Of a stretch of DNA of 62,178 nucleotides, positions 8,283 through 59,361 are shown piece after piece. The notes below the pieces were generated by a model that was not told the DNA's origin, did not search any database, and saw only the letters and a list, made by a program, of their open reading frames with translations. How positions within the stretch are numbered: the first letter of the stretch is position 1; every line of letters begins with the position of its first letter. Source of the stretch: Methanothrix sp. (lineage in GTDB: Archaea > Halobacteriota > Methanosarcinia > Methanotrichales > Methanotrichaceae); NCBI GenBank assembly GCA_029907715.1, contig JARYLI010000009.1, positions 1 to 62,178 of the forward strand, given 5' to 3'. The position numbers and the translations under genes are program-made.

Positions 8283-8406
8283 CGCTCTCATCCATCTGAT
8301 AACCTGCCCAAAGAGACACCGCTACTGCTCTGCGCTCCTTCTGGGGGAATGATTGCGTTCAGCAATCTCCAGGCATGACCCACAAGTTGTTGATTGCATA
8401 AGAGCG
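8283..8406 (-). mobile_element. R1 MITE-like element, copy a
   Basis: 124 bp in reverse orientation relative to the family. It starts CGCTCTCATCCATCTGATAA and ends GATTGCATAAGAGCG. It is bordered by a perfect 8-bp target duplication, GAGGGCAA at 8275-8282 and 8407-8414. The target is an R2 repeat, so this insertion is younger than the R2 copy. Confidence 0.8.
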
Positions 8407-8422
8407 GAGGGCAATTTACCTT

Positions 8423-8547
8423 CGCTCTTATCCATATGTTAACTTGCCCAATAGAAGCACTGGGCTTGCTACGCATTCCAGGTAAATGAATAAGTGCGTT
8501 CAGCAGCCATATTACACGACCCGCAAGTTGCCAAACACATAAGAGCG
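8423..8547 (-). mobile_element. R1 MITE-like element, copy b
   Basis: 125 bp, reverse orientation, CGCTCTTATCCATATGTTAA to CCAAACACATAAGAGCG. The flanks are TTTACCTT (8415-8422) and TTTACCTC (8548-8555), a target duplication with one mismatch. It lies inside the same R2 repeat as copy a, 16 bases from it. Confidence 0.78.
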
Positions 8548-8593
8548 TTTACCTCAACATATTGAGCATGCTCGAGGGCCATAATCGGCGTGT

Positions 8594-8717
8594 CGCTCTT
8601 CTGTATTTAGCAACTTGGATGTCATGTAGACAGGCTGCTGGAAGCACCTGTTCATTCTTCAGGAGCGAAGAGCATGATCAGTGCCGCTACATGCAAGTTA
8701 TCATATGGATAAGAACG
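8594..8717 (+). mobile_element. R1 MITE-like element, copy c (diverged)
   Basis: 124 bp, forward orientation, CGCTCTTCTGTATTTAGCAA to ATATGGATAAGAACG. The flanks CGGCGTGT (8586-8593) and CTGCGTGT (8718-8725) agree at seven of eight bases, an aged target duplication. With copies a and b it fills most of the 625-base space between the deoxyhypusine synthase and tfx genes, which otherwise holds nothing recognisable. Confidence 0.7.
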
Positions 8718-8758
8718 CTGCGTGTAAAGATGGCAAAACTATCTTCAAGCCTGATAGA

Positions 8759-9199
8759 TCACATTGATCTGGATTCACAGCTCCCATCTGCTTCCTCGAC
8801 ATAGATCTCCCCGTCTTCTGTGACATAGATGTCAAAACTCCTCTCGATGAGCCTTCTTCTGGTGAGATGCGGTGCGATCTCCTTCAATCCAGCCAGGATA
8901 TCTATCGAGTTCACCGGCAGCTTCAACCCCCGCCCGTCGGCCTCTCTGAATATGATCCCTGGCAGGGAGAAGAGGTCCGTGCCCTCAGGGATCCTTACGG
9001 CAACAGGCGCCTGGATCGTCTTCCACTGTTTCAGTGTCTCAAGCGCGCGGTCTATGTTCTGCATCGCCCTCTTCTCCAGGATGCTTACATTAGCTCTGGT
9101 TGTGCCGAGGAGAGCAGCCACCTCCTCCTGTGACATCCCTCTTCTTCTGAGGCGCAGGACCTGGATCTGTCTCTCAGTGAGAAACCCGCGCGAATTCAT
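8759..9199 (-). CDS. tfx: Tfx-family transcriptional regulator
   Basis: A 146-residue DNA-binding protein. The N-terminal helix-turn-helix (LTERQIQVLRLRRRGMSQEEVAALLGTT, then RANVSILEKRA; residues 7-45) is the Tfx signature; the C-terminal part is the conserved Tfx ligand or oligomerisation domain. Tfx of Methanothermobacter binds downstream of the promoter of the molybdenum formylmethanofuran dehydrogenase operon. Here the start overlaps the end of tupC by 26 bases, so it is the last gene of the tungstate-uptake operon. A W/Mo-responsive role is a reasonable inference. Confidence 0.9.
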   Translation of the reverse strand: MNSRGFLTERQIQVLRLRRRGMSQEEVAALLGTTRANVSILEKRAMQNIDRALETLKQWKTIQAPVAVRIPEGTDLFSLPGIIFREADGRGLKLPVNSIDILAGLKEIAPHLTRRRLIERSFDIYVTEDGEIYVEEADGSCESRSM

Positions 9200-9935
9200 G
9201 AATCAACCTCCAGTCAACCGGTCTGAGCATCCCCGCATGCAGGAAGGCCCTCACGTCATCGGAATCAGACCTCATCAGGAGGTCCGCAGATCCGGACGAT
9301 ACCACCCTCCCGTCCATGATGATCACAATTCTGTCGGCCAGACGCACCGCCTGGGGCAGGTCGTGGGTCGATATGACCACTGTCATCCCTCTCATCTTCG
9401 CGCGGGATATCAGATCCTCTATGACATAAGATGTTCTGGGGTCGAGATTGGCGGTCGGCTCATCGAGAAGCAGGAGCTCCGGCGAGATCGCGAGAGCCCT
9501 TGCAAGCGCCACCCTCTGCATCTCCCCTCCTGAGAGCATCCCTGCGGGCCTTCTCTCGTATCCCTCGAGGCCGACATCAGAGAGGGCAGCTTTAACTCTC
9601 CCATCAATCTCATCTTTCGATAAATGGCGTATCCTGAGGCCGTAAGCCACGTTATCGTAAACATTGCCCCTGAGCATGACCGGCCGCTGGAAGACCACTC
9701 CGATCCTGCGTCTGGCTGCCAGCCTCTCGCCCTCGTTCTTCAGAGCTTCACCCCTGAAGAGCACACGACCTTTTGAGGGAACCTCGATGAGATCCATCAC
9801 CCTGAGCAGCGTTGTCTTTCCGGCGCCCGTCGGGCCGATTATACCCAGCGTCTCGCCAGTTCTGACGTCAACGTTGATATCATCCAGTATCTGCCTGCCG
9901 TTTCTCTCAACGCTCACGCCTTCGATCCGGATCAT
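9174..9935 (-). CDS. tupC: Tungstate ABC transporter, ATP-binding protein
   Basis: ATPase of an oxyanion importer, 253 residues. Walker A GPTGAGKTT (about residue 33), Q-loop VVFQRP, signature LSGGEMQRVALARAL, Walker B LLLLDEPTANLD and switch histidine STHD are all intact. The ATG at 9935 (MIRIEGVSVERNG) is used; the longer frame runs through tupB and is spurious. It lies two bases after tupB and overlaps tfx. Tungsten feeds formylmethanofuran dehydrogenase and related enzymes in methanogens. Confidence 0.9.
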   Translation of the reverse strand: MIRIEGVSVERNGRQILDDINVDVRTGETLGIIGPTGAGKTTLLRVMDLIEVPSKGRVLFRGEALKNEGERLAARRRIGVVFQRPVMLRGNVYDNVAYGLRIRHLSKDEIDGRVKAALSDVGLEGYERRPAGMLSGGEMQRVALARALAISPELLLLDEPTANLDPRTSYVIEDLISRAKMRGMTVVISTHDLPQAVRLADRIVIIMDGRVVSSGSADLLMRSDSDDVRAFLHAGMLRPVDWRLIHEFARVSH

Positions 9936-9937
9936 CC

Positions 9938-10624
9938 TCACCACCCCTGGAGCCTGCCGACCACTGTGTTCACCACCAGAGATATCGAGATCAGGATCAT
10001 GCCGAGAGCTATTGATACCTCCAGGTTTCCCATGGATGTCTCGAGAGCTATCGCTGTTGTGAGCACTCTTGTGTACCCTCTTATGTTTCCGCCTATCATC
10101 ATCGCAACGCCCACCTCTGAGAGGGCTCTTCCGAAGCCGAGTAGCACAGCCGCAAGCACAGGTCCTCGCGCCTCCGCTATCACCGTCCACATCGTCTGCA
10201 GTCTGTCAGCGCCAAGCGAGATGGCTGTATCTCTGATATCTTCGCTTACACCGCTCAGAGCTGATATCGTGAGCCCGAGGATGACGGGCGTTATCAGAAC
10301 AGTCTGACCGATGATCATTCCATAAGGAGTGTAGAGAAGCCCGTAGCTGCCGAGCGGACCCGCTCTTGAGATGAGCAGGAAGACGAAGAGCCCGACGGTC
10401 ACTGTGGGTATACTGTAAAGGGTCTGGATGAGATTTATCAAAGCACTCCTTCCCGGGAAGCGATGAAAATGTATCAGGCTTCCAAGAGGTACGTTGATGA
10501 GAGATGCGATGGTGACCGAGGCGAGTGCGATTAAAAACGAGCGGAGCGTGACCTCGATCACCTCCGGATCCAGTTCGATTATCAGCTCAACAGCCCTGAT
10601 GAACCCTCTTGCTATCTCATCCAA
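9938..10624 (-). CDS. tupB: Tungstate ABC transporter, permease
   Basis: Inner-membrane channel protein of 228 residues with about five hydrophobic segments. The EAA-type cytoplasmic loop that docks on the ATPase reads DTAISLGADRLQTMWTVIAEARGPVLAA, a little before GFGRALSEVG. TupB/CysW-type permeases share this layout. Its start overlaps the end of tupA by eight bases. Substrate choice (tungstate rather than molybdate or sulfate) rests on the neighbouring TupA. Confidence 0.9.
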   Translation of the reverse strand: MDEIARGFIRAVELIIELDPEVIEVTLRSFLIALASVTIASLINVPLGSLIHFHRFPGRSALINLIQTLYSIPTVTVGLFVFLLISRAGPLGSYGLLYTPYGMIIGQTVLITPVILGLTISALSGVSEDIRDTAISLGADRLQTMWTVIAEARGPVLAAVLLGFGRALSEVGVAMMIGGNIRGYTRVLTTAIALETSMGNLEVSIALGMILISISLVVNTVVGRLQGW

Positions 10625-11495
10625 AAACGCTCACCATTTCTCCTGGACATTCTGTGGCATTGCATCCGATCTCCATGCAGTGACCAGCGGCTGGATAGAA
10701 CAGCGCCCTCCCGTAGATATCCTTTCCGTAGCCTGCTATGATCTCCTGTCCCTCCCTGGAGACGAGAAACTCCACGAACCTGTCCGCGAGATCCAGATGC
10801 TCTGATGCGGAGACTGGTATTGCAGCGTACACATTGAGCAGCTCATCGCTCTCCGTCACCAGCGGCACGAGGCTCAGGTTGCCCGCGAAGGCCATGTACG
10901 TCGACATATCCGTGAGCGTGTATGCACTCTTCTCATCTGCCATGATAAGTGTCGCGCCCATCCCCTGGCCTGACTCCAGATACCATCTGCCTGCAGGCTC
11001 GATACCGGCGCTCTTCCAGAGCAGCCTCTCGCGTGCATGCGTCCCGGAGTTGTCGCCGCGGGAGACGAACTGCACGTTTGGATTCTTCTCTCCAGCTTCT
11101 GCAATCCTCCTGAACGCCTCGGATGCGTTCCTGCCCTTTATACCTGCGGGGTCCTCGGCAGGGCCGACGATGTAGAAGTAATTGTACGCGAAGCATCTCC
11201 TCTCAGTACCATATCCATCAGCTATGAACTCCCTCTCTCGCTCTTTATCGTGAACGAGAAGCAGATCCACATCCCCGCGCCTCCCCTGCTCAAGCGCGAA
11301 TCCTGTTCCACCTGAGATGATGTCTACCTCTATCCCATACTCCTCCTCAAACCGGCTCTCCAGCGCATTGAGAAGCCCTGTATCATAAAGGCTCGTTGTC
11401 GTCGCAATTCTCAGCCTGTCATCCGTTGTCTCCCCTGCAGAGAGCGTGCTGATCAGGAATGCAACAAAAAGCAGCTGAACATAACGCCTTATCAT
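10617..11495 (-). CDS. tupA: Tungstate-binding protein
   Basis: Extracytoplasmic solute-binding protein of 292 residues with a signal peptide (MIRRYVQLLFVAFLISTLSA). TupA hallmarks are present: RIATTTSLYDTGLLN near the mature N-terminus, and FVSRGDNSGTHARE, which contacts the oxyanion. The ATG at 11495 has GGAGGG seven bases upstream; an earlier in-frame start at 11516 has no such site. It is the first gene of tupA-tupB-tupC-tfx. Confidence 0.93.
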   Translation of the reverse strand: MIRRYVQLLFVAFLISTLSAGETTDDRLRIATTTSLYDTGLLNALESRFEEEYGIEVDIISGGTGFALEQGRRGDVDLLLVHDKEREREFIADGYGTERRCFAYNYFYIVGPAEDPAGIKGRNASEAFRRIAEAGEKNPNVQFVSRGDNSGTHARERLLWKSAGIEPAGRWYLESGQGMGATLIMADEKSAYTLTDMSTYMAFAGNLSLVPLVTESDELLNVYAAIPVSASEHLDLADRFVEFLVSREGQEIIAGYGKDIYGRALFYPAAGHCMEIGCNATECPGEMVSVFG

Positions 11496-11620
11496 ACCAC
11501 ACCCTCCTGTAAACATTACAGCTAACAGTAATACTAATATGTAAGCGTTTTGGTATCAGAACGAGATGTATCTGAACAAGGAAGAAGTGCTCATAACAAT
11601 CAGCATCTGCAAAACTCGAA

Positions 11621-11744
11621 TGCTCTTATGTATTCAGCAACTTGAAGGACAGCCAAGACGGTTGCTGAATGCACTCATTCGCTCGCCACGAGCGCATAGC
11701 GTGACTGGTGCCTCTTCGGTCAAGTTATAAGATGAATAAGAGCG
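11621..11744 (+). mobile_element. R1 MITE-like element, copy d
   Basis: 124 bp, forward orientation, TGCTCTTATGTATTCAGCAA to AGATGAATAAGAGCG. It is flanked by a perfect 8-bp duplication, AACTCGAA, at 11613-11620 and 11745-11752. The interval 11496-12037 contains this copy, the duplication at 11719-11828 and no gene. Confidence 0.85.
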
Positions 11745-11828
11745 AACTCGAATACACGCGGCAGCTGTTGCGCCCCGGGCGGTGTTCACTTGTCAAGTTA
11801 TAAGATGAATAAGAGCGAACTCGAATAC
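11719..11828 (+). repeat. 37-bp direct repeat made from the right end of R1 copy d
   Basis: Bases 11719-11755 recur exactly at 11792-11828. The unit comprises the right end of the R1 element, its 8-bp target duplication and three more bases. The 36 bases between the two units are GC-rich and unrelated. Part of the element end was therefore duplicated after insertion. Confidence 0.85.
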
Positions 11829-12037
11829 CTGGCTCAGAACTCTTATCCGAGCAGGTCCTCAAACGCATCTGGGCTGAGCGATATGACGAACGATGATTGA
11901 GAAAATGAAGATTGGGAGTCAACCCTTGCAGATCACCTAAACAAGGGCAGACCAGAGGATCCGGTGATAGTTCAGTCCCATCGGTCGACTTCGTGTCGCA
12001 CGTGCATGCCGGTATGAAAGTTCCCTGCGGTGCTGAG

Positions 12038-12412
12038 CTATATGCCTGCCATCTGTCCCTTTATCGCATCGACGACAATTCTGAGCTCCTCTTCGCTGAT
12101 CGAGAGGTCCGGAGATTTCTTCACACCCAGCTCCGTTATCACAACACAAAGATCCGGCTGAAATCCGCAGAGCTCCAGGCTCTTGCGGCAGCACTCCAGG
12201 GAGCATCCATCTATGGAGATTATCGCGTCTGCACCCTGCGCAGAGGCTGTTATACCCCTGATGCTGGCTGTTATTCCGGCCAGGCACGAGATCCTGCCAT
12301 ATCCCTGAGCGGTCAGCTCCCTGCCAGCGGCATTTGCGAGCTGGCCGACATTCGAGCCGCCAGCGCATGTGAATATCGCGCGTCTGGCCTCACAGAGGCA
12401 ACTCTCTGCCAT
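12038..12412 (-). CDS. DGC-domain putative zinc-binding protein
   Basis: A 124-residue cysteine-rich protein. Conserved points are FTCAGGSNVGQLAN at the N-terminus, SCLAGI in the middle and the DGC motif itself in SIDGCSLECC, followed by ELGVKKSPDLSISEEEL. The DGC family is thought to bind zinc and is often coded beside small thioredoxins; its biochemical role is unknown. The ATG at 12412 lies three bases after the thioredoxin gene, with a GGGGTAGGT site. Longer in-frame extensions overlap that gene and are rejected. Confidence 0.8.
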   Translation of the reverse strand: MAESCLCEARRAIFTCAGGSNVGQLANAAGRELTAQGYGRISCLAGITASIRGITASAQGADAIISIDGCSLECCRKSLELCGFQPDLCVVITELGVKKSPDLSISEEELRIVVDAIKGQMAGI

Positions 12413-12414
12413 AC

Positions 12415-12654
12415 CTACCCCTTCAGCAGGCCCTTGATCTCCTCCACGCTCAGAACGCGGCCGACAGCTACAGTCTCTCCGTCGATGCAAAGAGCCGGGG
12501 TCATCATCACCCCGCGATCCATGATCTCCATGATGCTGTCCACCTTGACTATCTCTGCGTCTATGCCAAGCTCCTTGACCGCCTGGCGCACATTTTTCTC
12601 CAGACCCTTGCATTTGGCACATCCTGTGCCCAGAACCTCTATCTTCAAGCGCAT
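12415..12654 (-). CDS. Small thioredoxin-like redox protein
   Basis: 79 residues with the active site TGCAKCK and the cis-proline segment MMTPALCIDG, as in the Mt0807/MTH895 class of archaeal mini-thioredoxins. It probably reduces a disulfide or carries sulfur for the DGC protein downstream or the exported rhodanese upstream. It lies 11 bases after the rhodanese stop and two bases before the DGC start, so the three form one operon. Confidence 0.88.
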   Translation of the reverse strand: MRLKIEVLGTGCAKCKGLEKNVRQAVKELGIDAEIVKVDSIMEIMDRGVMMTPALCIDGETVAVGRVLSVEEIKGLLKG

Positions 12655-12665
12655 GACCTCCGTGA

Positions 12666-14054
12666 TCAGAATCTTCCGAGCTTCCTGTACCTCTCAGCCT
12701 GTATCTCAACAGATGTGCGTTTCTCGAAGCGCTTGGTGATCCCCCATGCTGAGAGCTCAACGCTCAGGTTGTATATCCCTGCGGGAACGCCAGACGCGTC
12801 CCAGGTACCTGTGTACACATATGCTGATACTGGATGCAGCATGACCCGTGAGATCTCTTCATCAGAGCTGTCCGTCACAACAGCCACAATATCAACAGCT
12901 TTCTCCGGGCCTGCTGCTCCGGTCTCCGCAGCGCCGATAACGTTCACGACCTTTCTCCCCGGTGATGTGTAGTTTCCGAGCCTCACGCCGGTGCTCTTAT
13001 CCCTGCTGAGACCGCCGGTGTATATCGTTATGGGCTCGCATGTGACGCATCCCATCACGTTCATGCTGTCGTTTTTCGGGCTCTCGGAGAACGTGGCGGT
13101 TATCTTGACCAGTCGCTCCGTGCTCACATCTGCTCTGAGGTCTGAGAGCTCCATTCTGAGCTCTGGCTGGTGATCAAGCCAGTCCAGCCATGTGTAGAGC
13201 CTCGCATCGTATCCAAGGCTCCTGAGGGCGAACCAGACGAGGGATGCCTGTCCGCCGTTCAGGCTGTAAACGACCACCGGTCTCCTGGGGTCGAGATTGA
13301 AAAGGGATGCGAGCTCACTGGCGTTCTTCAGTCTTCCGTTGCTCAGGACAGATGAAGACTCCACATTCACCGCTCCAGGGATGTGTGCAGCCTGAAACTC
13401 AGCTGCGCTTCTCGCGTCCACGACCTGTGCAGCGCCGCTCTTAACATAATCATATGTGGCGAGGAGTTCCGGCCTGAGCTCAGGGGTGTAGTTTGCTGGA
13501 GGTCTGATCGATGGTCTCTCGCTCATGTTAGCTCCAATCCTCTCCATCTCCAGGATTCTGACATCCTCCTGCCCCAGATAGCTCAGCAGCCAGCAGATAT
13601 ACGTTGGATCGCCGCACTCCATGCAGCTCCCGTAGACGACGACAGTATCATTTCTTGTCAGGCCATGTGATCCGAGTATCTCACGGATCTCACGCACAGA
13701 GCGCAGCCTGCCGTCGGCGACGAACTCCGCTCGCGGAACGTGTATCGCGCCCTGGACGTAGTAACGGGGATTGTCGTTGCTAACATACATGATCACATCC
13801 GACTGTGAGATATCACCGACATCAACCACACCCATGGGGTCACGGAGTGGTTGGTGCAGCTGCCCGGTGTCGGACCGTGAGATATTACCGATATCAACCG
13901 CGCCCATGGATGATGCCGCTGATGTGAGGAGGATCAGCAGCACAAATGCGCTCCAAAGCAGGGCGGGAACAGCGTGTGATCTCTCCAGGTGGCGATTTGC
14001 CCTCATGCATGATTGCCAGCCCGGAGGGCACATGAGATTCATTTCAGGTATCAT
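12666..14054 (-). CDS. Exported tandem rhodanese-domain protein
   Basis: 462 residues. A hydrophobic segment (VPALLWSAFVLLILLTSAAS, about residues 29-48) should export or anchor it. Rhodanese domain 1 follows and has a cysteine in its loop (VVVYGSCMECGDPT). In domain 2 the loop reads VVVYSLNGGQAS, with Ser for the catalytic Cys, so it is probably inactive. The last 150 residues look like a beta-sandwich. A TATA-like box (ATTTATAACC, about 14078-14088) lies 25-30 bases before the ATG at 14054, which may therefore be leaderless; the Met at 14006 is an alternative. Confidence 0.82.
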   Translation of the reverse strand: MIPEMNLMCPPGWQSCMRANRHLERSHAVPALLWSAFVLLILLTSAASSMGAVDIGNISRSDTGQLHQPLRDPMGVVDVGDISQSDVIMYVSNDNPRYYVQGAIHVPRAEFVADGRLRSVREIREILGSHGLTRNDTVVVYGSCMECGDPTYICWLLSYLGQEDVRILEMERIGANMSERPSIRPPANYTPELRPELLATYDYVKSGAAQVVDARSAAEFQAAHIPGAVNVESSSVLSNGRLKNASELASLFNLDPRRPVVVYSLNGGQASLVWFALRSLGYDARLYTWLDWLDHQPELRMELSDLRADVSTERLVKITATFSESPKNDSMNVMGCVTCEPITIYTGGLSRDKSTGVRLGNYTSPGRKVVNVIGAAETGAAGPEKAVDIVAVVTDSSDEEISRVMLHPVSAYVYTGTWDASGVPAGIYNLSVELSAWGITKRFEKRTSVEIQAERYRKLGRF

Positions 14055-14119
14055 ATTCTGATTAGCGTGGATTTATTTTGGTTATAAATTTTGTGTTTAA
14101 AGTCTGTGCAAATCGCTGA

Positions 14120-14974
14120 TCAGTGGCGATCCATCAATGTATGTTGATCTGTTTTATCCGAGCGCCTTTTCATCCGCACGCCTGCATTCATGCTTCCGCT
14201 CCTGTATCCCTCCAGATCGAGCGTGATGTATACAAATCCAAGCCTTCTGAGCTCATTCACGATGCTCTCCCTCTGCATCAGAACCTGGTGTATCTCGGAT
14301 TGCAGGACCTCGATCCTGGCGAGGTCGCCGTGTGCTCTCACGCGAACCTGTGATAGCCCCATATCCTTCAACAGATCCTCTGACTGCTCCACTCTTTTAA
14401 GCGTATTCAGATTTATGCGCATGCCGTATGGGATCCTGGATGCGAGGCATGCAGATGATGGCATGTTCCAGAAATCCAGTCCTAGTGATCTTGCAATCTC
14501 CCTGATATCAGATTTCGATATGCCGGCATCGACAAACGGATGGCATATACCCTCTTCATCACATGCCTTTATCCCCGGGCGGTAATCGCTATAGTCTGTC
14601 GTGTTGACGCCATCTGCCACGCAGCCGATGCCGAGAGAGCTCGCGATGCTCCTGAGGACTCTCGCAGAGGATTTCTTGCAGTGGTAACATCTCTCGTGGC
14701 TGTTCTCAACCACGCTCTCGAGATGGAGGATATCATGCTCGACAGCGATGCACTCCATCCCAAGACGTTGAGCAACAGACATCGCATGCTTGATATCCCT
14801 TCTAGGCATCAGCGGGGAGTCAAGGATAACAGCCACCGCCCTCTCTCCGAGAACCTCTCTGGAGATCGCAGCGAGAAGGCTGCTGTCGACACCTCCAGAG
14901 AAAGATACTAGCATGCTCTCTCTGGATGCGATTATCTTCCTGAGCAGATCGAGCTTCTCAGCCACTCCGTACAT
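14120..14974 (-). CDS. larE: LarE-family ATP-dependent sulfur-transfer protein
   Basis: PP-loop enzyme of 284 residues. LarE sacrifices a cysteine sulfur to thiolate the nickel-pincer cofactor precursor. SGGVDSSLLAA near residue 25 is the PP-loop, ERCYHCKK follows, and SSACLASRIPYG holds the sacrificial cysteine. Whether this organism makes the lactate-racemase-type cofactor cannot be told here; LarB and LarC are not in the window. The start overlaps the PUA gene by 17 bases, so the two are co-translated. Confidence 0.88.
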   Translation of the reverse strand: MYGVAEKLDLLRKIIASRESMLVSFSGGVDSSLLAAISREVLGERAVAVILDSPLMPRRDIKHAMSVAQRLGMECIAVEHDILHLESVVENSHERCYHCKKSSARVLRSIASSLGIGCVADGVNTTDYSDYRPGIKACDEEGICHPFVDAGISKSDIREIARSLGLDFWNMPSSACLASRIPYGMRINLNTLKRVEQSEDLLKDMGLSQVRVRAHGDLARIEVLQSEIHQVLMQRESIVNELRRLGFVYITLDLEGYRSGSMNAGVRMKRRSDKTDQHTLMDRH

Positions 14975-15425
14975 GCTCCTCTACTCCGTATCTCACTGAG
15001 ACGGCCACACCCCTTTTTATCTGAAGCATCTCCTCAGGCGCCAGAACTGCCCTCCCGGTTGCGATCAACCTGTCGTTCTCATCAACGACCAGCACCTCAT
15101 CGCCCGCCCTAATCTCAGGATCTGCGTACAGCACATGCCTGGCGAAGAGGTTCTTTCCGGCAGAGACGAACGGCACAGCCTCCTGGGATGCGACAACCCT
15201 CAATCTTGGATGCGGAAACGCCATGTGCAGCCTCTCAGCGCCGAGCATGCTGAGCGTCAGATGTGAGTCCCGGGCGCGCACGGTCGCTATCCTCTCATCC
15301 CCTGAGAGAAGATATCTCAGCCTCTGCGTGCTGGAAAGCTGGAAGGTCGTGCCGTCTGGAAAAAGAGCGGCTCCCGCTCCCCTCCCGAACTGAATGTCTG
15401 CAAGCATCCTGGCAAGATGAATCAT
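14958..15425 (-). CDS. PUA-domain RNA-binding protein
   Basis: 155 residues. The second half is a PUA domain (GKNLFARHVLYADPEIRAGDEVLVVDENDRLIATGRAVL). The first half (ADIQFGRGAGAALFP and GERIATVRARDSHLTLSMLGAERL) matches the small archaeal proteins related to the C-terminal part of archaeosine transglycosylase. A role in tRNA or rRNA modification is likely but not shown. It is read divergently from pycA across an AT-rich promoter region at 15426-15536. Confidence 0.82.
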   Translation of the reverse strand: MIHLARMLADIQFGRGAGAALFPDGTTFQLSSTQRLRYLLSGDERIATVRARDSHLTLSMLGAERLHMAFPHPRLRVVASQEAVPFVSAGKNLFARHVLYADPEIRAGDEVLVVDENDRLIATGRAVLAPEEMLQIKRGVAVSVRYGVEEHVRSG

Positions 15426-15469
15426 GCGATGAGATGGGCAGCTGGGAGTTTAAGCTGTTCCCATCATGT

Positions 15470-15490: not shown

Positions 15491-15536
15491 ATTTTTTCCA
15501 AAAAGGTTTTACCTTTGTAGAGCGTTGGGTTTGGGG

Positions 15537-23748: not shown

Positions 23749-23873
23749 CGCTCTTATGTATTCAGCAACTTGAAGGGCATGCAGGCCGGTTGCTGAATGC
23801 ACTCATACCCTCGGAAGGAACGCATAGCGTGACTGGTGCCTTTTTGGGCCAAGTTATCAGATGGATAAGAGCG
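23749..23873 (+). mobile_element. R1 MITE-like element, copy e (best preserved)
   Basis: 125 bp, forward orientation, CGCTCTTATGTATTCAGCAA to CAGATGGATAAGAGCG. The 8-bp target duplication is perfect, CGGTCATA at 23741-23748 and 23874-23881. The two ends pair for about 23 bases with a few mismatches. Inside, TTCAGCAAC and GTTGCTGAA form a second hairpin. It has no coding capacity. Confidence 0.88.
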
Positions 23874-23950
23874 CGGTCATAAAACCTCCTTCGGAATTCC
23901 GAGCTACTCAAAGGACGAAATACCCATGGCGAAGGCAGCCTTACAGGGGG

Positions 23951-24058
23951 GCAAATTGCCCATAGAAGCACTGATCCTGCTGTGCATTTTTGGTGAATGA
24001 ATAAGTACATTCAGCAACCACATTGCATGACCCACAACTTGCCAAACACATAAAAGCG
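23951..24058 (-). mobile_element. R1 remnant, copy f
   Basis: About 108 bp, closely similar to copy b through GCCCATAGAAGCACTG, GTGAATGAATAAGT and CCAAACACATAAAAGCG, but without the opposite inverted end. A truncated element. Copies e and f fill most of 23653-24137; no gene is seen there. Confidence 0.65.
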
Positions 24059-32312: not shown

Positions 32313-32585
32313 GTCCATCAGCCTACATCATGTATCGGGATATCCTATATAAATAGTTTAGACGCGCCTGGACTGCGGCCCTGAAAGTCCCAGATTATGC
32401 TTTTAGATTTGTGAGCTGCCTCAAAGGGATGAGGCTTTCAACAGCCCTGAGCATGTTAGAGCATGCTCGGACCTACAGGATGGCTCAAATGCAGCCCCAA
32501 GACGATACCTGCTGTCATATCAGCATATCGGTCTGCTCCAGAAGGAGTGGCCAGGCTGTCGGGCATCACGATGGGATATAAGGTA

Positions 32586-32699
32586 CGCTCATATGTGTTT
32601 GCCAAATTAGAGGTTGTGCGGCTGCTGGAAGCGCTCGTTCACCAGGAACAGAGGCAGAAACAGTGCCGCTTTGGCCAAGTCATCAGACGGGTAAGAGCG
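32586..32699 (+). mobile_element. R1 MITE-like element, copy g (diverged)
   Basis: 114 bp, forward orientation, CGCTCATATGTGTTTGCCAA to CAGACGGGTAAGAGCG. No target duplication can be seen, and internal deletions shorten it, so this is an old copy. The rest of 32313-32804 holds no recognisable gene. Confidence 0.65.
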
Positions 32700-32804
32700 A
32701 ATCGCTTTTGGGGGGCTCATGATGAGATTCTGAGAGATGCCCTTCTTCTGAGGCAGCATCTGAGCCCTATCATCTCGATCTGCCTCTGGATGTACAGCTG
32801 CAGA

Positions 32805-33983
32805 TCATCCCGCGATGAGCAGTCTGATGAGGTCCTTCCCCTCGACACTTCCATAGCTTCCCCTCGACGCTGAGATCTCGTCAAAAACATCGACAGAATC
32901 CGCATCTATTCCAGACCCGGCTATCGCGAATGGGACCGGGTCGGTGGAGTGTGTTCTTATCTTTATGGGCGTGGGATGATCCGGGAGAAGAAGCACACGC
33001 CACGGCTCTCCAGATCTCTTCAGACCACTGATCATCGGGCCAACCACCCTCTCATCGAAGAGCTCTATCGCTCTTATCTTCTGTTCAACATCTCCTGAGT
33101 GCGCGGCTTCGTCCGGTGCCTCTACATGAAGATACACGATGTCCACTGAACCAAGAGCTTTGAGCGCGGCCTCGACCTTGCCAGCGTAGTTGGTATCGAT
33201 CGTGCCCGTCGCCCCAGGAACATCGATCACTCGCCAGCCGGCATAGACCCCCAGTCCCTTCAGAAGATCAACAGCTGAGATCACCGCGCCATCCAAACCG
33301 TAGATGTCATGAAACCCGGGCATCGACGGCGCAGGCCCCTGCCCCCAGAGCCAGATCATGTTTGCGGGCTTCAAACCCATGCTCACGCGCCTGCGATTGA
33401 CAGGATGGCTCTCAAGCAGCGGCCGGGCTCCCTCCATGATCTCCACGAGAATGTGCGCATCATCTCCCCTGGGAAGGTGATCTGATATAGGCCTGCCCAT
33501 TATATCATGTGGCGGGGTGCAGACAGCATCCCTGCATGCTGTTAAAACAACGATGTTCCTGTAGCTCACTCCAGGATATATCCTGCCGCCCGGTATAACC
33601 TTCTTCAGGGATCTCGCTATCTCAGCGCCCTCCTCAGATGTGATATGACCGGCGCTGTAGTCGTCCATGATGCCGTCAATCACAGTGACGAAATTGCATC
33701 TGAACGCGATCTCGTTCTCCCCAAGAGGTATCCGCATCGCAGCAGCCTCAAGGGGGGCCCGCCCTGTGTAGTACCTCCTAGGATCATATCCCATTATGGA
33801 CATATTTGCCACATCGCTTCCAGGGGTCATGCCATCAGGCACCGTCCGGGCGAGACCGCATCTCCCGATGCGGCCAATTAGATCCATGTTCTGCTTGCAT
33901 GCAGCCTGCAGGGGCGTTCTCCCGCCAAGAGCCTCCAGCGGCCAGTCTGCCATTCCATCTCCGAGAAGCACCACGTATTTCAC
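32805..33983 (-). CDS. apgM: Cofactor-independent phosphoglycerate mutase, archaeal type
   Basis: Interconverts 3- and 2-phosphoglycerate in glycolysis/gluconeogenesis. 392 residues of the alkaline-phosphatase superfamily: LLGDGMADWP at the N-terminus, TPGSDVANMSIMGYDP with the catalytic serine, HVEAPDEAAHSGD and LLPDHPTPI with metal ligands. It is followed seven bases upstream by mcrC on the same strand, so the two may share a transcript. Confidence 0.95.
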   Translation of the reverse strand: MKYVVLLGDGMADWPLEALGGRTPLQAACKQNMDLIGRIGRCGLARTVPDGMTPGSDVANMSIMGYDPRRYYTGRAPLEAAAMRIPLGENEIAFRCNFVTVIDGIMDDYSAGHITSEEGAEIARSLKKVIPGGRIYPGVSYRNIVVLTACRDAVCTPPHDIMGRPISDHLPRGDDAHILVEIMEGARPLLESHPVNRRRVSMGLKPANMIWLWGQGPAPSMPGFHDIYGLDGAVISAVDLLKGLGVYAGWRVIDVPGATGTIDTNYAGKVEAALKALGSVDIVYLHVEAPDEAAHSGDVEQKIRAIELFDERVVGPMISGLKRSGEPWRVLLLPDHPTPIKIRTHSTDPVPFAIAGSGIDADSVDVFDEISASRGSYGSVEGKDLIRLLIAG

Positions 33984-34619: not shown

Positions 34620-34710
34620 GCGTCAGACTCTGAGCTCAATGCTGATATAGTCTTTGCCCTGCAGCGAGAGGTTAATGCCATCTGGATCCGCAAAGCCCAT
34701 CTTTTGCACA

Positions 34711-34824
34711 TGCTCAATACGTTGAGGTAAATTGCCCTCTTGGCGGATTTCTGGATGAACGAGTATGACCGATGATATCGGCTTCACTTGATCAGTAACT
34801 CAAGCAAGCTCGCGATATTGAGCA
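34711..34824 (-). mobile_element. R2 repeat, uninterrupted copy
   Basis: 114 bp with inverted ends TGCTCAATAC and TATTGAGCA. Reverse-complemented, it matches the R2 copy at 8187-8570 after that copy's two insertions are removed, sharing for instance TTGAGTTACTGATCA and ATCCAGAAATCCGCC. It codes for nothing visible. Confidence 0.65.
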
Positions 34825-35009
34825 AATACCATCTTTTTGAGAATTCCAGCACGCTCTTATCCATCTTATAACTTGCCCGAAGAGGCACCAGTCACGCTGT
34901 GCGCTCGTGGCGAGCGAATGAGTGCATTCAGCAACCGGCCTGCATATCCTTCAGGTCGCTGAATACATAAGAGCGTTGAGCAAATACCATCTTTTTGAGA
35001 ATTCCAGCA
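34818..35009 (+). repeat. 34-bp direct repeats flanking R1 copy h
   Basis: Bases 34818-34851 recur exactly at 34976-35009, bordering the R1 element at 34852-34975. The unit starts with the last bases of the R2 repeat (TTGAGCA). The other R1 copies have 8-bp duplications, so a 34-bp one is exceptional. Confidence 0.85.
34852..34975 (-). mobile_element. R1 MITE-like element, copy h
   Basis: 124 bp, reverse orientation, CGCTCTTATCCATCTTATAA to CGCTGAATACATAAGAGCG. Inverted ends are well kept. The region 34620-35349 contains R2, this copy and copy i, and no gene. Confidence 0.82.
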
Positions 35010-35153
35010 TTATAGTATTCCGCATAAGTTGATATAATATAACATATCACATAAAATAATCTATAAAGTATGACATATCCAGTAGCTTTTAAATGGATTT
35101 ACATGAAGTGGCGCGAAGAACTATAGGTACCGACCAGCTCGACGAACAACAGA

Positions 35154-35276
35154 CGCTCTTATGCATTCAACAACTTGTGGGTTATGCTTAGAGGTTGCTG
35201 AACGCAATCGTTCCCCCGGAAGGAGGGCAGAGCAGGGGCGGTTCTCTTTGGGCAAGTCATCAAATGGATAAGAGCG
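35154..35276 (+). mobile_element. R1 MITE-like element, copy i
   Basis: 123 bp, forward orientation, CGCTCTTATGCATTCAACAA to CAAATGGATAAGAGCG, with a perfect 8-bp target duplication, ACAACAGA, at 35146-35153 and 35277-35284. It stands 75 bases after the stop of the DUF460 gene on the opposite strand. Confidence 0.87.
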
Positions 35277-52812: not shown

Positions 52813-54482
52813 TGGTCAGGATGACAGGAGCAGAGGCGATTATAGAGTGTCTCAGGCGGGAGGGAGTAGAGGTGATATTCGGCCTTCCTGGCGGAGTTCT
52901 GCTTCCGCTGTACGATGCGCTGTACAGCTCTGAGCTGAGACACATACTGGTCAGGCATGAGCAGGCGGCTGCGCATGCAGCTGATGGATACGCTAGGGCT
53001 ACTGGCAGAGTAGGTGTATGCCTGGCCACCTCTGGTCCTGGCGCGACCAACCTGGTCACAGGCATAGCCACAGCCTACATGGATTCAGTGCCAATCGTCG
53101 CAATGACCGGCCAGGTGAACACAGGCCTTATCGGAAAGGATGCGTTCCAGGAGGCAGATATCACCGGCATAACCATGCCGATAACAAAGCACAACTACCT
53201 GATCAAGAGCTCCAGGGATATACCCAGGGTCTTCAGGGAGGCATTCTACATAGCGAGAACCGGCAGGCCAGGACCGGTGCTGATAGATCTGCCAAGAGAC
53301 ATAACAGTGGACGAGCTCGAGTTCGATTATCCGGAGATAAACCTCCCAGGCTACAATCCATCAACTAAAGTCCACCAGCTCCAGATAAGAAGAGCCGCAG
53401 AGGCGCTGATGACTGCGGAGCGGCCTGTGATATACGCCGGAGGGGGCGTGAGGTATGCGAACGCGCACGAGGAGCTGTTCCAGCTAGCAACGCGACTGAA
53501 CGCTCCTGTGACGACAACGCTGATGGGGATGGGGTGCTTCCCGACAGACCACCCACTCTCCCTTGGAATGCTCGGGATGCACGGGACCAAGTACGCGAAC
53601 CTCGCAGTCCAGGAGGCGGACGTGCTTCTGGCAGTTGGAGCACGGTTCGATGATCGCGTCACAGGGAAGATCGCGAGCTTCGCACCAAAGGCCAGGATAA
53701 TACACATCGATGTGGATGCGGCTGAGATCGGCAAGAACGTGAGGGTGGACATCCCCGTTGTCGGCGATGCCAAGATCGCGCTCACGGAGCTGCTGAAACA
53801 TGTTCAGCAGAGGCCCTGGACAGAATGGAACGAAAAGATACTCTCCTGGAAGAGGGAGTACCCGCTGCGGTACACCAGGGATGAGAACGTGATAAAGCCG
53901 CAGTTTGTCATCGAGAAGATATGCGAGCTCTGCCCGGATGCGATAATAGTCACGGAGGTCGGACAGAACCAGATGTGGGCAGCGCAGTTCTTCAAACACA
54001 GAGATCCCAGAAAGTTCATAACCTCCGGCGGCCTGGGCACGATGGGTTATGGATTCCCGGCTGCGATCGGCGCGAAGATCGGGAGGCCAGAGTGCGAGGT
54101 GATCGACATCGCCGGAGACGGGAGCTTCCAGATGAACATCCAGGAGCTCGCAACCGCTGTTGTCAATGATATCCCTGTGAAGATCGCGATACTGAACAAC
54201 GGGGTGCTGGGCATGGTCAGGCAGTGGCAGACCCTCTTCTTCGGAAAGAGGTACTCGCACACGACTCTCGGCGACGTGCCTGATTTCGTCAAGGTCGCTG
54301 AGGCATACGGCGCCCTCGGTCTCAGAGCCACAAAGCCCTCAGAGGTCGAGGATGTGCTCAAAGAGGGGCTTGCGTCAGACAGGCCCACGGTCATGGACTT
54401 CATAATTCACAGGGACGAGAAGGTATCGCCGATGGTGCCGGCGGGAGCATCACTTAGCGAGATACTGGAGCTGGATTCATGA
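52809..54482 (+). CDS. ilvB: Acetolactate synthase, large subunit
   Basis: TPP enzyme forming acetolactate or acetohydroxybutyrate. 557 residues. [15 protein letters not shown] and [15 protein letters not shown] (catalytic Glu) open the pyrimidine domain; [15 protein letters not shown] is the FAD/substrate part; [15 protein letters not shown] through ILNNGVLGM is the diphosphate-Mg domain. The ATG overlaps the stop of the upstream synthase by four bases and its stop overlaps ilvN similarly. Confidence 0.97.
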
Positions 54483-54976
54483 AGCACACCATCGCAGTCA
54501 TCGTCGAGAACAAGCCCGGGGTCCTCACGAGGATTTCCGGGCTGTTCAGCAGGAGGGGCTTCAATATAGAGAGCCTCTCTGTGGGAGCCACTGACAATCC
54601 CGCCTACTCCAGGATGACCATCTCCGTCGAGGGCGATGATGTCGTTCTGGAGCAGGTCGTGAAGCAGCTCAGCAAGCTGATCAATGTCATAAGGGTGAGC
54701 AGGCTCGATCCGGAGGAGTCGGTGGAGCGCGAGCTTGCGATCATAAAGGTCAGCGCGAACAAGGATACGCGATCTGAGATCATGCAGATCGTCTCTGTCT
54801 TCAGAGCCAGAATAATCGACGTATCCCCCAGATCTCTCATCATAGAGGTCACGGGGGATGAGAAGAAGGTCGATGCGCTGCAGCACATGCTCCGCCAGTT
54901 CGGGATCAAGGAGATGGCCAGGACAGGCAAGGTCTCCATGGTCAGAGGAAGCAAGGTGGTCCAGGCTGGACCATGA
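54479..54976 (+). CDS. ilvN: Acetolactate synthase, small regulatory subunit
   Basis: 165 residues with an N-terminal ACT domain ([29 protein letters not shown]) that binds valine for feedback inhibition, and the standard C-terminal half ([20 protein letters not shown]). Starts four bases inside ilvB. ilvC follows 12 bases on. Confidence 0.96.
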
Positions 54977-54988
54977 GGAGGAGTTGTT

Positions 54989-55987
54989 TTGGCAACAATA
55001 TATCGTGATAAGGATGCGGATCTTAGGGTGTTGAAGGACAAGACGATAGCCATAATAGGCTACGGCAATCAGGGGCATGCGCAGGGTGCGAACCTCAAGG
55101 ACTCCGGGCTAGATGTCATAGCCGCAGATCTGAAGGACTCTCCTGCGTGGAAGAGAGCTGAGAAGGATGGCATCAGGGTCATGACCGTGCCAGAGGCCTC
55201 AAAGGAGGCGGATTTCATACAGATACTGCTCCCCGATGAGCTGCAGCCGAAGATCTACAGGGAGCAGATAGCTCCATACCTCGAGGAGGGAAACATACTG
55301 GGATTCTCGCACGGGTTCAACATACACTTCAACCAGATCATACCCCCTGAGTATGTGGATGTCGTGATGGTCGCGCCCAAGGGCCCGGGCGATCTTGTGC
55401 GCCGCCAGTTCCTGGAGGGCAAGGGTGTTCCGTGTCTCGTCGCTGTGAAGCAGGATTATTCCAAGAGCGCGAAGAGAATCGCGCTGGCATATGCAAAGGG
55501 CATCGGCGGGACACGCGCCGGGGTCCTTGAGACCACATTCGCAGAGGAGACCGAGACGGATCTCTTCGGGGAGCAGGTCGATCTCTGTGGAGGAGTTACA
55601 GCGATGATAAAGGCTGCATTCGAGACCATGGTGCAGGCCGGGTACCAGCCTGAGATCGCGTACTTCGAGGCATGCCATGAGCTCAAGCTGATAACAGATC
55701 TCATTCATGAGGGCGGCCTGATGAAGATGTGGAACTCTGTATCGAACACAGCAGAGTACGGTGGTCTCACCAGGGGCGAGAGGATAATAAACGAGCAGTC
55801 CAGGGAGGCGATGTGGGAGATACTCGAGGAGATTAGGTCTGGAGAGTTCGCCAGGGAGTGGATACTTGAGTCTCAGGCAGGACTGCCGGTGAAGAAGGCC
55901 CTGGAGCAGCAGGAATCGGAGCATCTGATCGAGAAGGTCGGAGCAGAGCTCAGAGCGATGATGCCCTGGCTGGGCGAGAAGAAGTGA
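54989..55987 (+). CDS. ilvC: Ketol-acid reductoisomerase
   Basis: Second enzyme of valine/isoleucine synthesis. 332 residues, class I: Rossmann loop [41 protein letters not shown], and Mg ligands in [13 protein letters not shown] and EACHELKLI. The start is a TTG at 54989 after GAGGAG. Downstream, AAATTTTTTATAATAAAA (56005-56022) looks like a T-rich archaeal terminator closing the operon. Confidence 0.96.
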
Positions 55988-56004
55988 TACCACCAGCTCC
56001 ACCA

Positions 56005-56022
56005 AATTTTTTATAATAAAAC
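56005..56022 (+). terminator. T-rich terminator after ilvC
   Basis: A run of six T residues within an AT-only stretch 18 bases after the ilvC stop. Archaeal RNA polymerase ends at such T-runs without needing a hairpin. Confidence 0.45.
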
Positions 56023-56082
56023 AGGCCTTGCCCGCAGGTTGTGCTGAGACATCTGGCAGCCACAGCTGCGGGCTCTCAGACC

Positions 56083-56403
56083 TCAATCGGATCTGCCGGC
56101 AGTGAGCTTTTTGCCGATTATGTAGAGAAGCCCTGCGCAGATCGCAACGCCTATTATCGCGGATGCTATGTACGCCAGTGCAGACTCTGCGAACGTCTCA
56201 GCGCCCGGGAAGGAGTAGTCAGGTATCGGCGCAGACCAGAGAGAACCCAGCGACTCGATGCCACGCGGGACATATCCGAGCTTCTCCTTGACCTCCTCCG
56301 CACCCCACTCGCCGAAGGTCTCACCGGTCGCGAGCAGCCCCAGCGGCACCAGCACTGTGAGAACTGCAAGCGCTGCTATCATCTTTTTAGTGGTTCTGTC
56401 CAT
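56083..56403 (-). CDS. CbiN/PDGLE-type membrane protein
   Basis: 106 residues with two membrane spans (IAALAVLTVLVPLGLLA and ALAYIASAIIGVAICAGLLYIIG) around an outer loop containing TGETFGEWGAEEVKEKLGYVP. The type is the PDGLE/CbiN small subunit that works with CbiM in Ni/Co import. Starts 11 bases after the cbiM stop. Two-span layout and position make the assignment good. Confidence 0.82.
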   Translation of the reverse strand: MDRTTKKMIAALAVLTVLVPLGLLATGETFGEWGAEEVKEKLGYVPRGIESLGSLWSAPIPDYSFPGAETFAESALAYIASAIIGVAICAGLLYIIGKKLTAGRSD

Positions 56404-56414
56404 ATCATCTCCTC

Positions 56415-57104
56415 CTATGCCCTTGAGGGCCTGCCATACGAGAGCAGGGATGGGTCTGCCCTCTGGACGTAAGCAAAGATCAGTGCAGTCACAATCGCCT
56501 CGAGGAAGCTGAAACCGAGCGCGTGCTCAATGATCATTGCAGGAAGCGTCACATCGAGCCCGTATGGCATGTAGAGCGGATATCCTGCAGCGTCCCTGTG
56601 CAGGAGCGGCTGTATCCCGAACATGAATCCGGTCATCGCAGCCGCCAGCGTCAGCGAGACGTACCCCGCGATTGCCGCAGCTATCGTCCTTCTGCCGGAT
56701 GTCACTTCAGAGCTGCCGCTTATTATCTTATAAACATAATACGCTGAGAATGGCATCAGTACAGCCATGTTGAAGCAGTTCGCAGCTATCGCTGTTATCC
56801 CACCATCCCCGAACATCAGGGCCTGGAGCACAAGTGCGACAGATATTGATATCACAGCAGCCCACGGCCCGAGGACTATGCCGATTATCGCACCACCAAC
56901 AGCATGTCCGGTGCTGCCTCCGGGTATGGGGACATTGAACATCATTATCACAAAAGAGAATGCAGCGGAGAGCGCAAGCAACGGGACCTGTCTGGATCTC
57001 AGCTCCCTGCCAAGCCGCCTTGCAGAGTAGACCCAGATGGGGATCATTATGAGCCATGTGGCCACGATCGTGTATGGCCCTAGGTATCCATCCGGTATGT
57101 GCAT
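56415..57104 (-). CDS. cbiM: Ni/Co energy-coupling-factor substrate-binding protein CbiM/NikM
   Basis: 229 residues, seven hydrophobic stretches. MHIPDGYLGPY at the N-terminus is the metal-binding sequence in which the second-residue His coordinates Ni or Co; GGSTGHAVGGAIIG and GDGGITAIAANCFNMA are the other conserved loops. The transmembrane CbiQ and ATPase CbiO subunits are not next to it. The leader contains AATTTATAACC (TATA) and GGTGAT before the ATG. Nickel is needed for F430 and CO dehydrogenase. Confidence 0.92.
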   Translation of the reverse strand: MHIPDGYLGPYTIVATWLIMIPIWVYSARRLGRELRSRQVPLLALSAAFSFVIMMFNVPIPGGSTGHAVGGAIIGIVLGPWAAVISISVALVLQALMFGDGGITAIAANCFNMAVLMPFSAYYVYKIISGSSEVTSGRRTIAAAIAGYVSLTLAAAMTGFMFGIQPLLHRDAAGYPLYMPYGLDVTLPAMIIEHALGFSFLEAIVTALIFAYVQRADPSLLSYGRPSRA

Positions 57105-57174
57105 ATAATCACCAGATGCCCATATCGCCTTTGGTTATAAATTGATTTCGCATGGATATACTAACTAATATGAA

Positions 57175-57190
57175 AATATTTTATAATATT
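57175..57190. promoter_or_regulatory. Palindrome AATATT-TTAT-AATATT upstream of cbiM
   Basis: A perfect six-base inverted repeat with a four-base spacer between the regulator gene stop (57200) and the cbiM promoter, about 40 bases upstream of the TATA box. It could be an operator for the metal-uptake genes or, given its T-run, part of the terminator of the regulator gene. Confidence 0.35.
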
Positions 57191-57199
57191 ACTAAGATC

Positions 57200-57658
57200 C
57201 TAGCGCGCTTGCCTGGAGAGGATCCTGCGTATCCTTGATTCGAGGAGATCAATCTCAGCAGTACCTGACCTGGACCTGAGCAGAGCGAGATCGCGACGCA
57301 GAGGGCCGGCGAGGAGCTCTCTGTCCCCCTGAGCCCGCTCAGCTGCATCTATGAGCTCATGTATCCTTTTGATGCGTTTCTTCACATCTGCAGCGTCCTC
57401 TACCGCCTCCCTGAGCATCCTGAGCGCCTCAGCTGCCCTTCTTCCAGGGCTGGTCAGCTCCGCATACCTCACCCTTCCCTCAGTCCGGGTGGAGACCAGC
57501 CCCGCCTGCTCAAGCTGCGAGAGTATCCGCAGCGTGTGGGCGAACGTCGAGTCGATTTTTTTGGAGATGAGAGATGCATAGGCATGATCGAGCTCGAGGA
57601 TCGCCAGGAGAGCCTGGCAGGGCTTCTCCTTGAGGAGAAGCCTCTCCATCTCATCCAT
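57200..57658 (-). CDS. Winged-helix transcriptional regulator
   Basis: 152 residues. Helix-turn-helix in LISKKIDSTFAHTLRILSQLEQAGLVSTRTEGRVRYAELTSPGRRAAE (about 34-80), then a long helical end (ADVKKRIKRIHELIDAAERAQG). It resembles MarR/ArsR-type regulators; no metal-binding cysteine motif stands out. It lies between a lipoprotein gene (eight-base overlap) and cbiM, so it may control either. The ATG at 57658 is used; a GTG at 57667 adds three residues. Confidence 0.78.
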   Translation of the reverse strand: MDEMERLLLKEKPCQALLAILELDHAYASLISKKIDSTFAHTLRILSQLEQAGLVSTRTEGRVRYAELTSPGRRAAEALRMLREAVEDAADVKKRIKRIHELIDAAERAQGDRELLAGPLRRDLALLRSRSGTAEIDLLESRIRRILSRQAR

Positions 57659-58574
57659 TCGAGACACCGGATGTGTTGATCACAGGTATCAGCATCACCG
57701 CGCTCCTCGCCTCATCTGGCAGCTCTATCTCAATGGGTCTGTCGTAATCGAAGAACCTCATGCTCTCCTCCACATTGACATTTATCAGGAACCTGACGCC
57801 AGGGGACGATATCCCCAGCACCTCAGGGGTGATGCTGGCCCTCACAGTGCCATCTCTTTTAACAAGACGTTTATCCTCCTTCGAGACCCATGCGGTCCAG
57901 TCTATGCTGCTGTTCCTCTCCAGCTCGGTGGTGTTGAACATCGCCAGAAGGATCTGAGCAGGAAGCCCCAGGACCTCGCTGACCTCAAGAGCGATCACAG
58001 CAGCACGTATCGTGCTGTTCTCAGGCGACACCTTCAGCTTCCAGCAGTCTGTGCCGTCCAGTGTCTCAGAACCGATGATCTCTTGAGTTGATCTGTTGAG
58101 GATATCCAGCTGGAGGTACAGCCTGTTCTCCCGCAGCAGCTCATACTCCGGGTACGGCATGAACAGGCGCGTCCAGTTGCCGTTATTCTTCTCGTACCGC
58201 GTGCTGTTTATTATGTAGTACTCCCTGGATGCGGACATGCTCAGGTTCCGGTACTTCTCAGAGGTCATCGAACTCTCCTGCGATACCCTGAGCATGCTCT
58301 GTGAGACGTTCCTCGCGATCGATATCTCGCCGTTCTCTCTCAGATTATAAGATAGCCTGTCCTCCAGAGAATACCCCTCTGTCAGGTTCAGAAACTCCGC
58401 CGTGGTCATCTTCGACGACTCAAACCTGTACGAGGTGATGTTTCCAGATGCCCTGAGGAGATCTTCCATCAATGCAGTCGAATTCGGAGCTGCTCCAGGC
58501 CCACCAGATGGGCCGATGCAGCCTGAAAGAGCCACAAGCGTGAAAGCCAGAAGTATCTTGGTGATGATCTTCAT
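57651..58574 (-). CDS. Exported lipoprotein, LolA-like
   Basis: 307 residues. The signal peptide ends in a lipobox, TLVALSGCIG, so the Cys would be lipid-modified. The body has alternating beta-strands and many N-x-S/T sites (for example NLTEG, NVSQS, NSTRYEKNNGNWT), as in methanogen surface proteins related to LolA/outer-membrane lipoprotein sorting folds. Function unknown. The ATG at 58574 has GGG seven bases upstream; a GTG at 58580 is an alternative. Overlaps the regulator gene by eight bases. Confidence 0.72.
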   Translation of the reverse strand: MKIITKILLAFTLVALSGCIGPSGGPGAAPNSTALMEDLLRASGNITSYRFESSKMTTAEFLNLTEGYSLEDRLSYNLRENGEISIARNVSQSMLRVSQESSMTSEKYRNLSMSASREYYIINSTRYEKNNGNWTRLFMPYPEYELLRENRLYLQLDILNRSTQEIIGSETLDGTDCWKLKVSPENSTIRAAVIALEVSEVLGLPAQILLAMFNTTELERNSSIDWTAWVSKEDKRLVKRDGTVRASITPEVLGISSPGVRFLINVNVEESMRFFDYDRPIEIELPDEARSAVMLIPVINTSGVSNG

Positions 58575-59361
58575 GCGCACACCCTTTTATTTTAGCAGCG
58601 CAGGACGTCTGCTGTAAACTGGATGGCACCGCTCTGCATGCTCTGCAAATGCCATCGATCTCCAGCGCTCTTCAGCGCAGTTGATACCACAATGACCCGC
58701 GCAGCTGGAGTCAATCTGAAACGTCTGAAGATAAACACATTGTGATCGATGGTCCGCGAGCAGGACCCCGAATGGGACTGCTGAACCTGCTGACCATAAC
58801 AAATCTTCTGTGAGATCCTGAGTTTTTTAGGGGTTGAAAATGGAGTACAGGTTAACCTGCTCGCTCTTATGTATTCAGCAACTTGAAGGACATGCACGGT
58901 TGCTGAATGCAATCATACTCTCGGAGGGAACGCATAGCGTGACTGGTGCCTCTTTGGGCCAAGTTATCAGATGGATAAGAGCGAACCTGCTTACCATGAG
59001 AGATCTTCTGTGGGATCGAGAGGGCTGCGAATCTCTCCGATTCATGCACGCGCTTCATCGGTGCACCAAAACTCATCTTGTAACAAAATATGTGCCAAGA
59101 ATTGGTCCATTGGGAGGTATAGTGCAATTATTTGTAAAAATCATGATGGCAATATATCTCTTTACGGTAAGAGCTGCGATACACGGTCTTGTGTATTTTG
59201 CGCCCTGACCCACGCAAGCGAAGCAGACAATCATCTGCACATATGGTCCAACCAGCACCCATGCTGGCGATCAGATGAATGAGATCGACGCCCATCTGTT
59301 ATTCATAGCTTCCGGAAACCACAAATAGTTTGCATGCATTGAAATTCGTGGAGGTATTGTT
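58575..59361. other. Gene-free stretch with repeats
   Basis: Contains R1 copy j (58862-58983) and an imperfect direct repeat of about 37 bases. Its first copy is at 58783-58819 (AACCTGCTGACCATAACAAA and on) and its second begins at 58984 (AACCTGCTTACCATGAGAGA and on), right after the R1 element. No credible ORF is seen. Confidence 0.6.
58862..58983 (+). mobile_element. R1 MITE-like element, copy j
   Basis: 122 bp, forward orientation, CGCTCTTATGTATTCAGCAA to CAGATGGATAAGAGCG. It is bounded by a perfect 8-bp duplication, AACCTGCT, at 58854-58861 and 58984-58991. Nearly identical to copy e, so one of the younger copies. Confidence 0.88.

Follow-up and report, generated by a model that had tools for sequence, protein, structure and literature searches.

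R1, a probable MITE family with 8-bp target duplications in Methanothrix

The dispersed repeat R1 is a discrete unit that has entered many new sites, mostly with an 8-bp and rarely with a 9-bp duplication of the target. Its duplications, its empty sites, the lack of compensatory base changes and the apparent confinement of its copies to one genus argue that R1 is a MITE, i.e. a unit transposed with 8-bp target duplication by a transposase encoded elsewhere; the probability of this whole explanation is put at roughly 0.93. The family is real, abundant and recently active, and it constitutes a new MITE family of a kind already known. The ends and stagger of R1 agree with those handled by DDE transposases in general insertion sequence biology. 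A DDE-type transposase encoded elsewhere would bind the conserved R1 ends, move the element and join it across an 8-bp stagger, and repair would fill this stagger to yield the target duplication.

R1 copies in the window

The stretch analysed, hereafter the window (62,178 nt), is contig 9 of a 2,006,954-base genome in 55 contigs. All ten R1 copies claimed in the earlier note are present, one of them truncated (Table 1), and its counts of five perfect 8-bp duplications and two with seven of eight positions were recovered as well. A 24-nt end motif with at most three mismatches matched the window 19 times, versus 0.05 expected from shuffles. The unit comprises 124 bases with imperfect inverted ends of roughly 24 nt, the outer CGCTCTTAT being nearly constant.

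Table 1. Positions, strands and flanks of the ten R1 copies in the window.
Copy	Coordinates	Strand	Flanks and context
1	8283..8406	-	Within an R3 repeat; perfect 8-bp duplication GAGGGCAA
2	8423..8547	-	Within the same R3 as copy 1; TTTACCTT/TTTACCTC, 7/8
3	8594..8717	+	Flanks CGGCGTGT/CTGCGTGT, 7/8
4	11621..11744	+	Perfect 8-bp duplication AACTCGAA; empty orthologous site in L051
5	23749..23873	+	Perfect 8-bp duplication CGGTCATA
6	23950..24058	-	One end lost; without duplication; common to L051
7	32586..32699	+	114 bp, diverged; without duplication
8	34852..34975	-	Flanked by a 34-bp direct repeat (34818-34851, 34976-35009)
9	35154..35276	+	Perfect 8-bp duplication ACAACAGA
10	58862..58983	+	Perfect 8-bp duplication AACCTGCT

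Copies 1 and 2 lie 16 bp apart inside a single R3 repeat, and uninterrupted R3 has TTTACCTC at the site of copy 2. Next to copy 4, a partial extra right end (11794-11817) is followed by a third AACTCGAA. Copy 6 keeps 109 of the 124 model positions. The direct repeat at copy 8, which is without 8-bp duplication, is perfect and abuts both ends; it is made of 13 nt of an R3 end joined to 21 nt of other DNA.

Like MITEs, the window copies (109-125 bp) are short and without coding capacity: a stop is present in 51 of the 60 frames of the ten copies, in line with their description as non-coding. As to their placement between genes, the long neighbouring ORFs are mostly recognisable genes, with Pfam domains of deoxyhypusine synthase, PBP-like, rhodanese, NosD, argininosuccinate lyase, RIO, phosphoglycerate mutase, MCR_C, DUF460, ABC transporter and ferritin, and several other neighbours gave no Pfam domain on testing. 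Four small ORFs overlap copies (8562-8804, 32463-32873, 58592-58912, 58834-59208; no Pfam match), and further small ORFs also overlap copies, e.g. 23762-24010 and 58867-59127.

Target-site duplications

Duplications were scored on 147 non-overlapping R1 units with flanks, 108 from the window's genome and 39 from others (length 100-205, at most seven end mismatches in all, 45 nt of flank). In this set, which was chosen from the window, the best matches and selected ends and is not a random sample, the 108 units display the fixed-size duplication characteristic of MITEs: 53 are perfect over 8 bp and 18 match at seven of eight positions, the remainder being three units with 9 bp, one with 7 bp, one with 34 bp and 32 without duplication. 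Mispaired flanks gave 0.029 perfect and 0.162 seven-of-eight matches per 108 units. The 39 units from other genomes comprised 14 perfect duplications, seven of seven in eight, one and one of other kinds, and 16 without. The 67 perfect 8-mers are A/T-rich on the outside, with A or T at positions 1, 2, 7 and 8 in 53, 47, 47 and 59 of them, respectively.

That R1 owes its spread chiefly to recombination or to the copying of segments, and not to transposition, is highly improbable. Such a spread would account for the 32 of 108 copies without duplication, for one shared copy (L093/L164) located where two species have almost the same sequence and for the 34-bp repeat around one copy, but it is contradicted for most copies examined by precise ends with 8-bp duplications in 71 of 108. 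The only identical R1 pair (L002, L003) belongs to the copies without duplication.

Empty sites and interrupted repeats

Transposition with 8-bp target duplication, as claimed from the window, is supported not only by the counts against mispaired flanks but also by empty sites and by interrupted R2 and R3 repeats. The empty sites hold one 8-mer and the occupied sites two. The locus L051 is colinear with the window and 90-94% identical across long aligned stretches. Among the R1 sites comparable between them, two differ cleanly by presence or absence, which speaks against vertical conservation of all copies as RNA genes, one is common (23950-24058) and two are too rearranged to score. At the position of the 11621 copy, which two 8-mers flank in the window, L051 carries a single ACCTCGAA; reciprocally, the window carries a single site AAGATATGCAGG where L051 has an R1 copy between two AAGATCCG. 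In the G046 stretches examined for further empty sites, two alignments were unclean and one copy (L093/L164) was common to both genomes.

Two other dispersed repeats accompany R1. R3 (about 120 bp, GGAACATGCTCAATACGTTGAG .. ATATTGAGCAAATACC) has copies up to 99% alike and is found in the window at 34708-34830 and at 8190-8282 with 8548-8573, and in 25 of the examined loci. R2 (about 300 bp, CATTGGTCATC .. GATGACGCATGG) is found in the window at 35008-35125 and in L031, L112 and L114.

Both repeats are known in uninterrupted form. R3 reads GAGGGCAATTTACCTC, including the window copy 34708-34830, and R2 reads GACTATTAAGTCCAA in six loci (L031, L042, L045, L112, L114, L160). R1 has split R2 in four loci: the duplicated sequence is AGACTATT in L004 (at the same position as in L102) and in L020, and AAGTCCAA in L006 and L033. 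An IS256-type gene is also interrupted by R1, with TAAGGGTA duplicated. R1 itself is interrupted by an IS5-like element, by IS630-like elements and by R2; in L031, R2 lies inside R1 between two AAGGATATCC. In L227, one R1 seems to have gone into another, older one. R1 copies of opposite orientation occupy one R2 site in both L004 (C23:100-224) and L020 (C12:170-293), which lie on different contigs, and both copies have the AGACTATT duplication; either this target was hit more than once or the pattern arises from the assembly near the ends of contigs.

Paired ends and RNA folding

The pairing of the R1 ends was upheld: across 35 diverse copies, pairing is seen in 88.5% of the cells of the 17 end pairs, versus 27-49% in slid controls, so that R1 possesses the terminal inverted repeats of a MITE. 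The inner hairpin TTCAGCAAC/GTTGCTGAA, presented in the earlier note as a common feature, proved not to be constant. In the same copies pairing holds for 78.2% of the hairpin cells, and several hairpin pairs are broken in at least a third of the copies. It is a subfamily trait, to which no function is assigned here. Longer variants of 147-201 bp (e.g. L034 528-702, L091 137-336) have in common a central TTCGAC..GTCGAA hairpin insert.

R1 copies might alternatively be structured RNA genes or transcript-end hairpins held by selection, being palindromic, located between genes and, in three of seven copies, folding better as single strands than shuffles (z -3.3 to -3.8). This origin is largely refuted and very unlikely: folding is weak in the other four copies (z -1.0 to -1.6), presence/absence differences and empty sites are found among the R1 sites, and Rfam detected in the window only a tRNA away from the R1 copies and gave no R1 match. 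The compensatory base changes of a structured RNA do not rise above shuffles, with one of 17 end pairs (shuffled mean 1.2) and two of 13 inner-hairpin pairs (shuffled mean 3.3). It is therefore the DNA ends that are conserved and not an RNA fold. Single copies may be in secondary use as RNA or terminators.

Distribution and age

The whole-genome search proposed in the earlier note found R1 ends to be abundant. The end motif CGCTCTTATNNATNNNNNAACTTG with at most two mismatches gave 164 + 146 = 310 matches in the 2.0 Mb, versus 0 for the reversed-pattern control, i.e. the high dispersed copy number of a MITE. As 17 such matches represent the ten copies of the window, scaling by this ratio leads to an estimate of about 180 copies genome-wide, or roughly 1% of the genome.

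The survey was extended to 50 genomes at the family level, six of them of the same genus as the window's organism. The six genomes have 310, 6, 83, 235, 28 and 90 end matches; among the other 44, 33 have no match and 11 have 1-6 chance-like matches (controls up to 2). With all six genus genomes positive, R1 appears confined to one genus as far as searched. G016, which has six matches, the most outside the genus, was rejected as a carrier, its repeat being a different one that continues beyond the motif. No R1 match was found in plasmid and phage collections, and three IMG/VR contigs each have a single R1 end whose mate is absent. In G046, a single contig of 1,879,471 bases, R1 ends near 1641513, 1648398 and 1655283 of C1 follow one another at intervals of exactly 6,885 bp and may therefore belong to tandemly repeated units of this size.

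Among 86 copies of 110-130 bp in the window's genome, 24 have a neighbour of at least 98% identity and one pair is identical; for 27 copies of G046 the best pair reaches 96.8%. Copies of G046 are up to 99.2% identical to copies of the window's genome located at different sites, whereas aligned flanks of at least 300 bp between the two genomes are mostly 80-89% identical, and some 93-99%. Since the cross-species identity of R1 exceeds that of the flanks, these comparisons suggest, on the basis of few copies, that R1 may be exchanged between species.

The search for a mover

A full-length insertion sequence with R1 ends, recommended in the earlier note as a check, was not found. From its statement that R1 was moved by a transposase supplied elsewhere, transposition itself is supported, and we infer the outside supply, no full-length R1-ended element having been found. 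Neither the following of ends nor four transposase profiles revealed an autonomous partner in the window's genome, and since this assembly is in 55 contigs the absence of such a partner is not proven. An autonomous partner is not demanded of MITEs by all authors.

With at most one mismatch, the main subfamily has 73 left and 81 right ends in the window's genome. Fifty-one of the left ends have a facing right end of this subfamily no more than 3 kb away; for 47 of these the distance is 100-210 bp. The four wider spans (410, 455, 2042 and 2190 bp) were rejected as autonomous elements, as they have nearer diverged mates or nested repeats inside. The ends without such a mate within 210 bp (26 left, 34 right) were all followed; these 60 led to diverged mates, truncations, contig ends and foreign elements but to no autonomous partner, and the foreign insertion sequences are nested in R1. 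Nor was an autonomous element seen in 40 stretches read at R1 ends of G046, G042 and G045, those of G046 being among the matches listed. Three profiles gave candidates that were discarded: the PF01609 match in L064, where R1 ends bound a 1,269-bp span, represents an IS5-like element that carries ends GAGGATTCCTA of its own and has gone into an R1; R1 sits within the IS256-type gene matched by PF00872; and the PF12762 matches are without R1 ends.

An ISH1-like IS5-family transposase is the likeliest candidate mover, though a tentative one. Elements of this type have ends TGCTGTGTTG or TGCTCTGTTG (pattern xGCTsT) and, like R1, an 8-bp duplication, exact in four of the five G046 copies displayed and in eight of 30 loci (7 places) in a separate count. 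Their ends diverge from those of R1 after the first five bases; as a possible IS5-derived MITE, R1 has in common with them xGCTsT and the duplication but not the rest of the ends. The transposase (NCBIfam NF033579, the ISH1 group) is present in G042, G044 and G046, and was not detected in G043, G045 or the window's genome, although R1 ends are most numerous there.

Two further possibilities are each somewhat doubtful. The second candidate mover would be an ISL3-type transposase, lost or unsampled. According to Table 3 of PMC6305408, a published ISL3 element is bounded by 24-nt ends GGCTCTT.. and has an 8-bp repeat, and bases 2-7 of these ends (GCTCTT) are identical in R1, whereas the ISL3 transposase profile PF01610 is missing from all six genomes of the genus. 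Alternatively, R1 might be a long-lived orphan lineage served by one end-recognising transposase or domesticated protein outside the families examined here. Its subfamilies are diverged, with a median pairwise identity of about 77% in the window's genome, and their length and end blocks are kept alike in each of the six genus genomes, which would point to one end-recognising activity long in service.

Least probable of all is mobilisation by the IS630-like element adjoining R1 ends in L105 and L109, where the same transposase start is reached from two R1 right ends, since elsewhere this element is bounded by ends of its own, CTAGTGCTC..GAGCACTAG, and it has two distinct entry points in R1, and the 8-bp duplications of R1 are unlike the 2-bp TA target of IS630, so that neither the TA target nor the common ends of an IS630-derived MITE are found. 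The IS630-like element is also located at the ends of contigs C1, C14, C19 and C27 of G000 and thus probably breaks that assembly.

Comparison with known elements and significance

ERIC elements of enterobacteria are close to R1 in length, near 127 bp, but have a TA target, unlike R1, which makes 8-bp duplications. They also resemble R1 in being palindromic and in having many copies (30-711; PMC10969869). Archaeal MITEs, such as Sulfolobus SM1-SM4 and the families in Kamoun et al. 2013 (PMC3852290), are likewise short, ORF-less, bounded by inverted ends and present in many copies, many of them with target repeats. The same article already lists 19 MITE-like families of archaea for which no partner was known, and its Table 4 does not include the host genus of R1. 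No literature joining Methanothrix with miniature inverted-repeat elements was found.

What is unusual in R1 is its copy load for an archaeon, together with a mover that was not found. The estimated 180 or so copies exceed the archaeal MITE copy numbers given in these two sources, namely 2-34 in Table 4 of PMC3852290 and 25-44 for SM2-SM3 in PMC10969869. The family is young, varies from one close relative to the next and apparently crosses species boundaries. Being young, variable and apparently exchanged, R1 copies could serve as strain markers and provide a methanogen system in which trans-mobilisation can be tested cleanly.
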